Shown piece by piece: positions 20,474 to 26,348 of a stretch of 36,983 nt of DNA. Position numbers and translations under genes: made by a program. The DNA comes from Candidatus Adiutrix sp. Lineage in GTDB: Bacteria > Desulfobacterota > Desulfarculia > Adiutricales > Adiutricaceae. The notes below the pieces were generated by a model. The model saw only the letters and a program-made list of their open reading frames with translations. It did no database searches and was not told the origin of the DNA. The stretch's first letter is position 1; every line of letters starts with the position of its first letter. The stretch is from assembly GCA_031261565.1 (NCBI GenBank), contig JAISJK010000051.1, forward strand, positions 1 to 36,983. The letters run 5' to 3'.

Positions 20474-20577
20474 CTCCTGAAAATGAGCTAAATCAGGCCA
20501 GATATTGGGTTTAGGGCCTTGGATTAACCAAGATGATGTATAACTTAATAAAATTATATATAATTAGCATAAAATGC

Positions 20578-20606
20578 TTGACAATATCACTTCAAAGTGG
20601 TGAAAT
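20578..20606 (+). promoter_or_regulatory. Predicted sigma70-like promoter upstream of the structured leader, with a palindrome in the spacer
   Basis: TTGACA (20578-20583), exactly 17-nt spacer, TGAAAT (20601-20606); AT-rich tract upstream (20541-20575); CACTT-CA-AAGTG in the spacer. Confidence 0.6.
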
Positions 20607-20611
20607 GGTTT

Positions 20612-20889
20612 CAGTCTGACGGGAAGTTAAGCGACTTTCCGGCGGCCATCTCGGAAATTTCAGCCTTGACGATCCCCTGGTCAAGGTGAGCCTTTCCGTC
20701 TCAACCTGAATGGGTGGGCGGCTCTAGGCTCTCAGGACGCGTAAGCAGGTTAGTATTTTCCCGCTCTAGGCACACGGGATCACAACCAGGGCGCCTGGGT
20801 TTGGTGTCAGCCCGGCCTGACTGGGCATCACCGAGGGCCGTTTCAAGGCAAACGGCAACCGGAAGGCCGGAGTGTAGCCGACAGGAGCC
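20612..20889 (+). ncRNA. Candidate structured leader RNA of unrecognised class upstream of the XRE-pilMNOPQ cluster
   Basis: No credible ORF. Serial complementary stems: GGAAGT/ACTTTCC, CGGAAA+CCTTGAC/GTCAAGG+TTTCCG, AACCTG/CAGGTT, CCCG/CGGG, CCAGG/CCTGG, GGTG+GCCC/GGGC+CACC, GCCGTTT/AAACGGC, CCGG/CCGG. Confidence 0.5.
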
Positions 20890-20907
20890 TTGTTAAACAA
20901 CGAGGTA

Positions 20908-21114
20908 ATGAAATTGGCAATTAATTCTCTGAGAGTGATCAGGGAGCAGCTTTTGATGAGCAAGGCCGAGCTGGCCCGCAAAGCGGGCGTCTCTCCCCTG
21001 ACGATTGACCGGATTGAAAACGGCAAGGAATGCCGCATGGAAACCAAGCGCAAGATTATCCTGGCTCTCGGCTACAGCCTGGAGGACAAGGATAAAATTT
21101 TCGCTGACTTATGA
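20908..21114 (+). CDS. Small XRE-family helix-turn-helix regulator (track ORF starts at an upstream TTG, 20890; start codon uncertain)
   Basis: RVIREQLLMSKAELARKAGVSPLTIDRIENGKECRMETKRKIILALGYSLEDKDKIF: canonical XRE HTH. Confidence 0.9.
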   Translation: MKLAINSLRVIREQLLMSKAELARKAGVSPLTIDRIENGKECRMETKRKIILALGYSLEDKDKIFADL

Positions 21115-21218: not shown

Positions 21219-22265
21219 ATGGCAATTAGTGTTTTGGGCATTGACATCGGCTCTTATGCGACCAAAGTGGTGGCTTTGGGCAACATCAAGGCGGATCGGG
21301 CCAACCTTTTGGGCCTGGGTATGGCCCAGGTGCCGACCGCTCTGGTTCTCAACTGGGAGGACGAGCCGGCCCCGGCCAAGACCGCCATCAGCCAGGCCAT
21401 GAAAAATCTGGTGGCCAATTTGAAATTGACCGGCAAGTATGTCTCGACCTCGGTCAGCGGCGACTCCATCGTGGTGAAAAAGATCACCCTGCCCAACATG
21501 AGTCCGGCGGAGCTTAAGACGGCCATAGTCGGCGAGGCTGAGCAATACATCCCCTTTTCCATCAACGAGGTCAACATCTCCTATCATGTTCTGGACACCT
21601 CGGCCACCGACAACCAGATGACGGTGCTGCTGGTGGCGGCCAAAAAAACAGTGGTTCAGAACTACATGGAGGCCATGGCCCTGGCCAAACTCAAGCCGGC
21701 GGTCATTGATGTCGACGGCCTGGCCCTTTGCAATGCCTATGGCTTTGTGTATCCGGGCAACACCGATGACGCGGTTTTGGTGGATATCGGGGCCAATATG
21801 CTGAATATCATCGTGCTCAGCCGCGGCATCCCCGTGGTCTTTCAGGATGAGCCCGGCGGCGGCCAGTATTTGACTGACGAGCTGGGCCGCCTCTTTGATC
21901 TGGGCCAGGACGAGGCCGAGGCCGTTAAATTTGGCTCGGAGCCGGCGGCCGACCCCGGTGAAGCGGCCAAGGCGGTGGACAAAGTGGTGGTGAACTGGAT
22001 AAACGCGGTGGAGAAGGTGATGGACAAGGCCAAGGCGGAAAACCACGCCTACCGGCCCAGCAAAATCATGCTGTCGGGCGGCTCCAGTCTCATCCCCGGT
22101 CTGCTGGAAGAGTTCAGCCGGTATTTCAACATCAGCACCGAGATTTTCAACCCTCTGCTCAATACCGTCTATAACAAGAAATATGACCCGGAATATATAA
22201 AATACATTGGGCCTCAGATGGCGGTCAGTTTCGGTCTGGCCCTGAGAAAGGTGGAAGTCCAGTGA
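21219..22265 (+). CDS. pilM: Type IV pilus assembly protein PilM
   Basis: VLGIDIGSYATKVVALG..., actin-like ATPase motifs DIGANMLNIIVLSRG and LSGGSSLIPGL; followed by pilNOPQ. Confidence 0.95.
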   Translation: MAISVLGIDIGSYATKVVALGNIKADRANLLGLGMAQVPTALVLNWEDEPAPAKTAISQAMKNLVANLKLTGKYVSTSVSGDSIVVKKITLPNMSPAELKTAIVGEAEQYIPFSINEVNISYHVLDTSATDNQMTVLLVAAKKTVVQNYMEAMALAKLKPAVIDVDGLALCNAYGFVYPGNTDDAVLVDIGANMLNIIVLSRGIPVVFQDEPGGGQYLTDELGRLFDLGQDEAEAVKFGSEPAADPGEAAKAVDKVVVNWINAVEKVMDKAKAENHAYRPSKIMLSGGSSLIPGLLEEFSRYFNISTEIFNPLLNTVYNKKYDPEYIKYIGPQMAVSFGLALRKVEVQ

Positions 22266-22957
22266 TTACCATAAATCTTCTGCCCATTGGCGCGTTTAAG
22301 GAAACCTACCGGGGCAAGCTTTTTCTGACCGCCTACGGCATCTTTGTGGCCATTTTGGTGGCGGCGCTGTTTTTGGTGGACAGCAATGTTTTTGGGCCCA
22401 ATATTGAAAGCCTGAAAGACCAGCAGACCCAGCAGGAGGCCAAAAAAAACCAGGTCAAAAACCAGGTCGCGGCAGCCAGCGAGAAAACCACTCAGACCTA
22501 TCGCCAGTGGAAACAGCTGTCGGCCATTATGGAGCTGGAGGAGCGGCGGCGCGACCAGACCCGTTTTCTGGTGGAAATTGACGGCCTGCTGCCCAAGAGC
22601 AACGCCTGGCTACTGTCCCTGGCTCACAACAAGGGCAAGGTAACCCTGGAGGGGCTGGCCACCGACAAGGAAACAGTCAGCCAGTTTCTGACCAGGCTGG
22701 AAGGGGCCAGATACATTGAAAAAAATACGGTCATTTTGCTGGAAATCACGCAGAATATGGTTATCAACGGCATTAAGCTGACCAAATTCAAAGTTACGGC
22801 CAACACCGCCTTTCCTTCGCCGACCATCATGGCCGAGGGGCTGCCGGATTTGGGCCTGCCCGGTCAAGACGCCTTTTTAAAGCTGGTGGAGGCCGCCGCG
22901 CCGGATCTGGTCAAAGCGGCCACGTCGGCCAAAGGCAAGGGCAAAAAGGGACTTTAA
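22262..22957 (+). CDS. pilN: Type IV pilus assembly protein PilN (GTG start)
   Basis: MITINLLPIGAFKETYRGKL... single TM; order M-N-O-P-Q; 4-nt overlap with pilM. Confidence 0.92.
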   Translation: MITINLLPIGAFKETYRGKLFLTAYGIFVAILVAALFLVDSNVFGPNIESLKDQQTQQEAKKNQVKNQVAAASEKTTQTYRQWKQLSAIMELEERRRDQTRFLVEIDGLLPKSNAWLLSLAHNKGKVTLEGLATDKETVSQFLTRLEGARYIEKNTVILLEITQNMVINGIKLTKFKVTANTAFPSPTIMAEGLPDLGLPGQDAFLKLVEAAAPDLVKAATSAKGKGKKGL

Positions 22958-22975
22958 GTCACAAGGAGACAGGCA

Positions 22976-23641
22976 ATGGCCAAAGCAGCGGGCAAAAATA
23001 AACCAGCCAAAATAAATCTGGCCGACAAGGCCGCCAAACTATCTGCGGCGGCCAAGGCGGCGGTCTTTATCGTCACCGGGCTGGCCCTCGGGGGAGCCTT
23101 TTACGGCCTGGTTTTCACCCCCTACAGCGAAGAGGCGGCTGGGTTGGAGGCCACTATAGAGGCGGCAAAACAGGAGATAACCACTAATGAGACGGCTCTG
23201 AAAAAACATCAGGCCGTGGGCAAGCTCAGTGAAACCGTCCATGCGGCCTATCTGTATATCAAGACCTATCTGCCCGGGGAGAATGAAATGCCCAAACTGG
23301 TGCAGATGGTTTCCGATATCGCCTCCAAGGCCGGCATGACCGATGGGGTGACCCTGTTCGCCCCCAAACTGCCGGCCCAGGTCAAGGAAGACTACGCGGA
23401 AATACCGTTTACTCTGAACCTGGAGGGCGAGTTTTTGACTGTGCTGAGTTTTTTATATGATTTCAGCCGTTTAAACCGCATTATCAATGTGACGGAAGTG
23501 AGCATCGGCTCCCCCAAAGTGATAGACGCTCATCAGGAGATTTTTTTCGTGCCGGTCAAATGCACTGGCAGCACCTATCGCAGCCTGACCGAGGCCGAGA
23601 TGGCGGCTCCGGCGGCTACTAAGGGCAAAGGCAAAAAATAG
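22976..23641 (+). CDS. pilO: Type IV pilus assembly protein PilO
   Basis: Single TM; LPGENEMPKLVQMVSDIASKAGMTDGVTLFAPK; position between pilN and pilP. Confidence 0.9.
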   Translation: MAKAAGKNKPAKINLADKAAKLSAAAKAAVFIVTGLALGGAFYGLVFTPYSEEAAGLEATIEAAKQEITTNETALKKHQAVGKLSETVHAAYLYIKTYLPGENEMPKLVQMVSDIASKAGMTDGVTLFAPKLPAQVKEDYAEIPFTLNLEGEFLTVLSFLYDFSRLNRIINVTEVSIGSPKVIDAHQEIFFVPVKCTGSTYRSLTEAEMAAPAATKGKGKK

Positions 23642-23680
23642 TCTTCCAACCTCGGTAATAATCAAGATGGAGCCTTTAAT

Positions 23681-24463
23681 ATGATGACCAGGCCAAGCCT
23701 TTATCTCCAACGAGCGACTTTGCGGCTGATTTTAGCCCCGCTGACTTTCATCTTTATCCTGGCTGCGCCTCTGTGGGGCCAGGCCAATACCGCCGGCGGG
23801 GCCGGGGCCGGGGACGTCAAAATTGAAGTCCTGGATGTGGCCACCGGCACCGGCTCCCGGACGGCCGGCTCCGGCGGCGCCGAGCTGAAAATAGAAGCCG
23901 TGCCGGTCAACCCGGCCGCTCTGGAGGGGCCCATGTTTGACCGTATGTCCGGCACCGGCGCCCTGACGCCCGAGGAGCAGAAAATCGCGGATCAGCACAA
24001 GGATCTTTTCGCGGCCCTGACCCAAAAGCGGACTCAGACCATGGCCACCTATAACTTTAACATCAGGACTATGGACGATCCCTTCCTGCCCATCAAGGAA
24101 GTGCGGGGCACGGTGGAGGAAAAACTGGCCAATGACCGGGCCTCGGAGGCCAATCTGCCGCCCATTTTGCGCCTGGAGCTGACCCAGTTAAAGCTGGTGG
24201 CCATCACCATTCTCTCCAGCAACCCCAACAATTCCTGGGCCTCTTTTGAAGACGGCACCGGAGCCAGTTATATCCTCAAGGTGGGCCAGAACATTGGGCG
24301 AAATCATGGCCGGATCACCAAAATTATGCCCAACGAGGTGGTGGTGGAGGAAACCGGCCGCACCGGCAATGATCGGCCCAAGATTACCACCATCAAGTTG
24401 GATGTTACCAAAACTGATGGCCTGACCTTAACAAACCAGAGCGAAGCGGCCCAGGGCCAGTAG
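23681..24463 (+). CDS. pilP: Type IV pilus assembly lipoprotein/inner-membrane protein PilP
   Basis: DDPFLPIKEVR...LRLELTQLKLVAITILSSNPNNSWASFEDGTGASYILKVGQNIGRNHGRITKIMPNEVVVEE, PilP domain. Confidence 0.9.
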   Translation: MMTRPSLYLQRATLRLILAPLTFIFILAAPLWGQANTAGGAGAGDVKIEVLDVATGTGSRTAGSGGAELKIEAVPVNPAALEGPMFDRMSGTGALTPEEQKIADQHKDLFAALTQKRTQTMATYNFNIRTMDDPFLPIKEVRGTVEEKLANDRASEANLPPILRLELTQLKLVAITILSSNPNNSWASFEDGTGASYILKVGQNIGRNHGRITKIMPNEVVVEETGRTGNDRPKITTIKLDVTKTDGLTLTNQSEAAQGQ

Positions 24464-24502
24464 TTTTCAGGTTTGGTGATTTATCAATAAAGGAGATGAA
24501 TT

Positions 24503-25930
24503 ATGACAAGGGCTTACAAACAGATTTTTATGCTGGCTCTGGCCTGTTGGGCGGCCGGCCTTTGGATTAGCCCCCAGGCGGCCCGGGCGGGCGCCGCCTT
24601 GAGCGCGAGTCAGGGCAGTTTTGCCCCGGTGGCCGAGGCCGCCGCGCCGGCCGCGCCGGCCGCCCCTCCTCCGGTCTCACCGGCCGTCGCTCCTCCTGAC
24701 CCGAATGCGACGCCCCAGGCCGCGCATTACGAGTCAACTAAAATTTATACTGGCGAGCGGATCTCCCTGGATTTCCAGAATGCCGATCTGCACAACATCA
24801 TCAGGATTATCGGTGAGGTTTCCGGGAAAAACATCGTGGTCTCGGACGCGGTGAACGGCAAGGTCACTCTGAAGCTAAAAGATGTGCCCTGGGATCAGGC
24901 CCTTGATATTGTGCTGTCTTCCCGCAATCTGGGCGTGGAGGAGTCGGGCAATGTCCTGACCATCTATGATCTGCCGACTCTAAGCTCCATCCAGGCCGGG
25001 CGCGAGCGGGTGGCGGCGGAAAGAGCGGCGGCCCAGGCTCAAATGCCCCTGGCCAAAAAAGTCTTTACCCCCAAATACGCGCCCATCAGCACGGTGGCCA
25101 GCGAGTTGACTAAGATTAAAACCGCCCGGGGCAAGATAGTGGCCATTGGCAATGATATTTATGTGGAAGACGAGCCCGGCAGCATCGCCTCCATGAGCCA
25201 GATATTTTTGCGGATAGACCGGGTGGCCCGCCAGATCCTCATTGAGGCTCGAATTATTGACGCCACGGCGACTTTTACCAACAGGCTGGGGGTTGACTGG
25301 CATGTTAATTATGATAAAGCCCGGACAGGTTCTGGGGTAACACCCGGGGATGGGGTGGGCAGTATTGACATGACCCACGGGGCGGCGGCTCTGGGCTTTG
25401 GTTTCCTCAACAAAGCCGGCAGCCTATATCTGAACGCCGCCATCACGGCCAGTGAAACATCCAATGACGCCCGCACTGTTTCAGCCCCGCGCATCATGGC
25501 CGCCAATGACCAGAAAGTCTCTATTAAACAGGGAACTCAGATTCCCTACAGCACCAGCTCGGCCAATAACGGAACCAATGTCCAGTTCAAGGAAGCGGAG
25601 ATGGAGCTGGAAGTGACGCCGCATATTGAGGAAAATGGCCAGATAGTCACCCTTGACATCAAGCTGACCAATGACTCTCAGGGCGAGCTAAGCGAATCCG
25701 GGCCAGCCATCAATACCAATGAGGCGGAGACCAAGTTGATGGTCAAAGATGGCGAAACAGTGGTTATCGGCGGCATCATTAAAGATCAGCAGATCACCGG
25801 CACCAGCCGGGTGCCCGGCCTGCACCGCATCCCCATTCTGGGCTGGCTCTTTCAGGAGCGGAATATAGACAGCAACAAGAGGGAAATACTCATCTTCATC
25901 ACCGCCAACATTATACCCATCAACATTTGA
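24503..25930 (+). CDS. pilQ: Type IV pilus secretin PilQ (short form)
   Basis: STN-like ISLDFQNADLHNIIRIIGEVSGKNIVVSDAVNGKVTLKLKDVPWDQALDIVL; secretin core VSAPRIMAANDQKVSIKQGTQIPY...VIGGIIKDQQ...VPGLHRIPILGWLFQ. Confidence 0.93.
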   Translation: MTRAYKQIFMLALACWAAGLWISPQAARAGAALSASQGSFAPVAEAAAPAAPAAPPPVSPAVAPPDPNATPQAAHYESTKIYTGERISLDFQNADLHNIIRIIGEVSGKNIVVSDAVNGKVTLKLKDVPWDQALDIVLSSRNLGVEESGNVLTIYDLPTLSSIQAGRERVAAERAAAQAQMPLAKKVFTPKYAPISTVASELTKIKTARGKIVAIGNDIYVEDEPGSIASMSQIFLRIDRVARQILIEARIIDATATFTNRLGVDWHVNYDKARTGSGVTPGDGVGSIDMTHGAAALGFGFLNKAGSLYLNAAITASETSNDARTVSAPRIMAANDQKVSIKQGTQIPYSTSSANNGTNVQFKEAEMELEVTPHIEENGQIVTLDIKLTNDSQGELSESGPAINTNEAETKLMVKDGETVVIGGIIKDQQITGTSRVPGLHRIPILGWLFQERNIDSNKREILIFITANIIPINI

Positions 25931-26273: not shown

Positions 26274-26348
26274 TGGAGCTGGCGATGGGAATCGAACCCG
26301 CAACATCCTGATTACAAATCAGGTGCTCTACCATTGAGCTACGCCAGC
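26274..26348 (-). tRNA. tRNA-Thr (anticodon TGT), CCA encoded
   Basis: Reverse complement GCTGGCGTAGCTCAATGGTAGAGCACCTGATTTGTAATCAGGATGTTGCGGGTTCGATTCCCATCGCCAGCTCCA; 7-bp acceptor, D, anticodon and T arms present. Confidence 0.95.

Follow-up and report, generated by a model that had tools for sequence, protein, structure and literature searches.

In Candidatus Adiutrix sp., the regulator gene xre, located in front of the pilus genes pilM to pilQ, is preceded by a genuine 5′ leader that had not been classified before. The window, that is, the whole 36,983-nt stretch of DNA that was analysed, carries this leader; it is contig C110 in a draft genome of 2.24 Mb whose nearest named relatives, Candidatus Adiutrix and strain Smac51, are Desulfobacterota living in the termite gut. 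We are moderately confident that the region is the 5′ untranslated leader of xre, about 300 nt in length, starting from the promoter at 20578–20606; it is presumably transcribed as one leader, with the start site deduced from the promoter. We give about even weight to the view that the leader is lineage-specific and fast-evolving, and that it restrains the translation of a conserved Cro/C1-type regulator. Since the leader belongs to no known Rfam class and is conserved and structured in the genus, a cis-regulatory RNA is the leading reading. The initial annotation had suggested a new cis-regulatory RNA; a conserved, structured 5′ leader does exist in the genus, but its conservation is only local.

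All window features described below are on the + strand unless stated otherwise. Pfam gave the gene order thiD (divergent), xre, pilM, pilN, pilO, pilP and pilQ, in agreement with the XRE-pilMNOPQ order first annotated. The xre gene (20914–21114) encodes a 66-aa Cro/C1-type HTH protein with a UUG start (HTH_3, 6.8e-10); it is followed by pilM (21219–22265; PF11104, 7.9e-47) and by pilN, pilO, pilP and pilQ (22262–25930; Pfam). In most of the phylum, xre and pilM are separated by about 20–40 nt; the window has 107 nt between them, and the gap widens to as much as about 1.1 kb in termite-gut relatives (L031, L059, L062 and L082). One tRNA-Thr (TGT) gene is located 3′ of pilQ on the opposite strand (26274–26348, minus). 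The annotated promoter, TTGACA-17-TGAAAT, is present at 20578–20606, and its spacer contains the inverted repeat CACTTcaAAGTG, a possible xre operator. The AT-rich block 5′ of the −35 element (20533–20577) is kept at xre promoters across the phylum and may serve as an UP element or operator.

The start of xre lies in the context GAGGTAATGAAATTGG. The TTG at 20914, eight bases past the GAGG of the Shine-Dalgarno (SD) sequence, is kept in all six Adiutrix species, whereas the ATG at 20908 is missing in L017, L018 and L019; therefore, the xre start is the UUG at 20914. It follows that the leader extends to 20913, past the interval of the initial annotation, which ends at 20889 and omits the SD hairpin.

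The leader begins with P1 (20616–20645), a 5′-terminal stem-loop of 9 bp, one A·G mismatch and 3 bp. P2 (20663–20687) is a hairpin, gCCUUGAC/GUCAAGGu. One motif, UUCCCGY..rGGCaCaCGGGAuc..CCAGGG, with a short CCCG/CGGG stem (20757–20792), is common to the window, L020, L017 and L018; the hairpin GCCGUUU/AAACGGC (20837–20856) is not among the parts of the leader found to be conserved. The SD hairpin, CCUUGUU-AAAC-AACGAGG (20888–20905), pairs the SD GAGG (20902–20905), for which the predicted probability of being unpaired is 0.001. The annotated stems with separately listed arms all pair fully by Watson-Crick pairing, and the annotated 9-nt repeat, GCTCTAGGC, occurs at 20721 and 20763 as claimed. 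The folding of the window leader is only modestly unusual (z = −1.98 and −2.26). Whole-leader z values in the six Adiutrix species are all negative (−2.3, −0.5, −2.7, −0.7, −1.6 and −2.5), and the reverse strand of the leader region gives only −1.2.

The leader contains no credible ORF, as had been noted, and a leader peptide was rejected because a conserved ORF with an SD is absent from it. Terminator-like sites in the window leader do not exceed chance; the initial annotation had noted no U-tract after the stems. The small RNA offered as an alternative in the initial annotation, transcribed on its own from this promoter, is thus very unlikely. The strong promoter, the structured transcript and the lack of an ORF would suit it; however, it has no terminator of its own, and in relatives xre itself is transcribed directly from this promoter, as is the xre paralogue in the window's genome (C13).

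The SD of xre is predicted to be hidden in all six Adiutrix species, the probability that it is unpaired being.001,.001,.204,.108,.043 and.074. For comparison, the median is.35 in 161 genes of the window's own genome, picked for a clear SD. Six random genes reach so low a mean with P = 1.4e-4 when the species are treated as independent, a value that is optimistic because the six species are related. Tested against shuffled upstream sequence, the occlusion is individually strong in only three of the six. The window and L020 share a nearly identical SD hairpin; L017 keeps the occlusion by a register-shifted hairpin, not by column-by-column covariation. Stable pairing of the SD, kept in relatives, is expected of an SD-sequestering leader and is predicted here. 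We also considered a switch in which an upstream loop pairs with the anti-SD strand (window loop CAAGGC versus GCCUUG; also in L017 and L018), and this strand exchange was dropped because only two of the six species beat dinucleotide shuffles.

The leader was compared across relatives, including Ca. Adiutrix intracellularis (loci L018 and L156), Smac51 (L019) and isolate Gx485_bin45 (L020); G000 denotes the window's genome. The xre-pilM pair is common throughout the phylum Desulfobacterota, where the promoter and the AT-rich block in front of it are conserved as well. The distance from promoter to xre is mostly 35–75 nt in the phylum; it is 230, 263, 299, 307, 361 and 678 nt in the six Adiutrix species, 420 nt in one genome of another genus, and about 175–190 nt in the sister genus g6. 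Because both the promoter and the gene are conserved and the distance between them is lengthened in Adiutrix, the long leader is a lineage-specific expansion. Local alignments gave scores of 60 for the window and L020, 41 for the window and L018, and 53 for L017 and L018, none of which was reached in 200 shuffles; similarity between the window and L017 is weak (3 of 200 shuffles). No sequence similarity to the other Adiutrix leaders was found for L016 and Smac51 by local alignment. By sequence comparison, then, the leader is homologous in four of the six species. The Smac51 leader contains, towards its 3′ end, ∼75 nt (L019:2898–2975) of a dispersed repeat with at least 50 matches listed in the Smac51 genome; some of these follow each other in tandem at a spacing of about 71 nt. 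None of the other five leaders is repetitive within its own genome, and a mobile-repeat origin of the window leader was rejected, as nothing beyond its promoter and P1 recurs elsewhere in the window's genome.

The conserved parts of the leader, P1, P2 and the SD hairpin, are local. P1 has the same two-part form in the window, L020 and L016, including the A·G mismatch, with compensatory pair changes; in Smac51 it is present in a different form. It is therefore a stem-loop with compensatory changes at the 5′ end of a transcript whose start is placed by the promoter. L020 retains P2, with one A-U pair turned into G-U, and L016 has a 9-bp analogue. Consensus folding of L017 and L018 gave z = −3.0, a value reached by none of 100 column shuffles; that of the window and L020 gave only z = −1.4 and is marginal compared to column shuffles. 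The consensus structure of the four-way alignment is not significant (z = −0.4), and double changes in the leader alignments are not above shuffles. Covariation of the whole leader is thus not demonstrated, given the weak window/L020 and four-way folding and double changes at the shuffle level. A structure-weighted alignment of five leaders and the four-way alignment likewise yielded no trustworthy whole-leader consensus, and model R2, built on the 5′ domain of the window, reaches only L020 (E 0.015 in the genome of L020). Conservation and covariation of seven stems had been put forward as a check of the initial annotation: P1, P2 and the SD hairpin are kept rather than each of the seven stems, and for the window none of the whole-leader covariation tests reaches significance.

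These comparisons also bear on the main rival explanation, namely that the leader is a passively lengthened GC-rich spacer in which only the promoter and P1, as a stabiliser, matter, and the rest drifts and sometimes gains repeats. We regard this as possible, with a probability that is appreciable but well short of even. The 230–680 nt range in length, the two leaders of six that lack sequence similarity, the repeat in Smac51, the weak whole-leader covariation and the enlargement of the xre-pilM gap in this family as well are all consistent with drift. However, passive lengthening does not readily account for significant leader similarity in four species, one of them a reduced endosymbiont without pil genes, for SD occlusion predicted in six of six, or for leaders that, except that of Smac51, are unique in their genomes.

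The initial annotation placed the main role of the RNA in the control of type IV pilus assembly. In the endosymbiont Ca. Adiutrix intracellularis, the promoter, the leader and a 91% identical xre are kept beside thiD, and no match to pilM to pilQ was found on the contig even at an E of 1. The sole PilM-profile match in its genome (91% complete) scores 18 bits and has the appearance of a cross-match with a different actin-like protein. Downstream of xre at these loci (L018:3001–4968, and L156) comes an AT-rich stretch of about 1.7 kb in which no genes were recognised. Since the leader persists without the pil operon, its immediate target is xre, and pilus control as the main role is not supported. 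Across the genus, Xre is 91–92% identical and PilM 56–76%. The leader is associated with xre more closely than with the pilus genes downstream.

In the Rfam scan, the window matched tRNA only, and the leader region had no credible match even at an E of 5; the RNA is of an unrecognised class and not GEMM-I, as first judged. A TPP riboswitch was matched in isolate Gx485_bin45 on the divergent thiD side (L020:2285–2414, minus), and no such match occurs in the window. In L049, L055 and L057, Rfam identified c-di-GMP-I aptamers at a distance of about 160–220 nt upstream of xre. This agrees with the pilM riboswitch of Geobacter metallireducens, a cGAMP-responsive transcriptional ON switch that acts via a terminator (PMC9262584). 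Like the window leader, the GEMM-I of the Geobacter pilM locus (RF01051) is a structured RNA before xre-pilM in the same phylum. Different from the window leader, it acts on transcription and lies upstream of the xre promoter; because the xre promoter of Geobacter-type loci comes after the GEMM element, the Adiutrix leader occupies a different position. That the leader is a diverged c-di-GMP/cGAMP (GEMM) riboswitch is hardly credible, even though GEMM elements precede xre-pilM in Geobacter-type relatives and Adiutrix has GGDEF proteins. The window leader shows neither an RF01051 match nor an aptamer-controlled terminator, and GEMM was found in none of 37 family genomes, in a search whose control genomes also gave no positive; the family model did match the Geobacter loci through cmscan.

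A metabolite riboswitch of a new class, with an aptamer and the SD hairpin before xre, is improbable. The length, the 5′ position, the SD hairpin and the failure to match Rfam would all fit such an element, as would the conserved internal motif with GGCaCaCGGG and the use of GEMM near the same operon by relatives. However, aptamers are normally the best conserved part of riboswitches, and the middle of this leader is its least conserved part. In addition, model R2 detects just one other species, and short shared motifs were found across species instead of a ligand-binding core.

For a leader that restrains xre translation, the following mechanism can be proposed. Positioned right at the 5′ terminus, P1 probably shields the message; the final hairpin would pair the SD before the UUG and keep xre translation low unless it is opened. 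From the predicted pairing, we infer that SD occlusion lowers xre translation and that a signal, which may be a ligand, a protein such as CsrA, or a small RNA, relieves it. In species that have the pil genes downstream, these would be affected via the shared transcript or via the regulator. Leaders that sequester the SD are known among thermometers, ribosomal-protein leaders and translational riboswitches; as in Adiutrix, a terminal hairpin that follows a structured leader holds the ribosome-binding site. Different from those systems, the Adiutrix leader carries no recognised sensor domain or ligand motif, and its middle part evolves fast. A stabilising 5′-terminal stem-loop is known from ompA, where, like the predicted P1, it is located at most a few nucleotides from the transcript start; in Adiutrix, another 260 nt of leader follows, and the stabilising role of P1 is putative.

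The sister genus g6 also has an xre leader (L114–L120, the same region as L024–L028), about 180 nt in length. It contains two conserved hairpins with the loops UUCAGGC and CAGGCuACA; seven pairs of helix 1 are altered on both sides, helix 2 is almost invariant, and a short SD hairpin is present. No Rfam match was found in the g6 loci scanned. Model R1, built on the first 83 positions of this leader, finds one copy per genome, at xre, in six of seven g6 genomes and nothing elsewhere in the family, including Adiutrix; homology of the two leaders was therefore rejected. Like the Adiutrix leader, the g6 leader belongs to the same gene, occupies the same promoter position, is structured and ends in an SD hairpin; unlike it, and with no detectable homology to it, the g6 leader is a better-behaved structured RNA. 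This lends support to the view that each lineage gains and replaces its own leaders on this promoter. A bolder proposal, which we consider speculative and unlikely, is that separate leaders evolved in termite-gut Adiutrix and in its sister genus on the same ancient xre promoter, each forming a new translational switch that senses a signal and governs a global Cro/C1-type regulator, and being kept even in the pilus-less endosymbiont. The Adiutrix leader would be an instance of fast turnover of leader RNAs between a promoter that stays fixed and a regulator that hardly varies. Loss of the pilus in the endosymbiont would be a natural experiment that separates the role of the leader from the pilus, and the small Xre is an unstudied, probably important regulator in Desulfobacterota.

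Elsewhere in the window's genome, part of the AT-rich block recurs at C12 and C13. The C13 locus (L005:1019–1324) carries the paralogous xre, which is not adjacent to pil genes; its promoter is the same, its leader measures 55 nt, and a 5′ hairpin and a partly paired SD are present. At C12 (G000:C12:21317–21406; L004:1018–1107, minus), a second copy of the promoter and P1 (first 40 nt) matches at 84%, with P1 altered. It stands 5′ of a gene for a 159-aa lipoprotein with DUF5061, which is likely a member of the same regulon.
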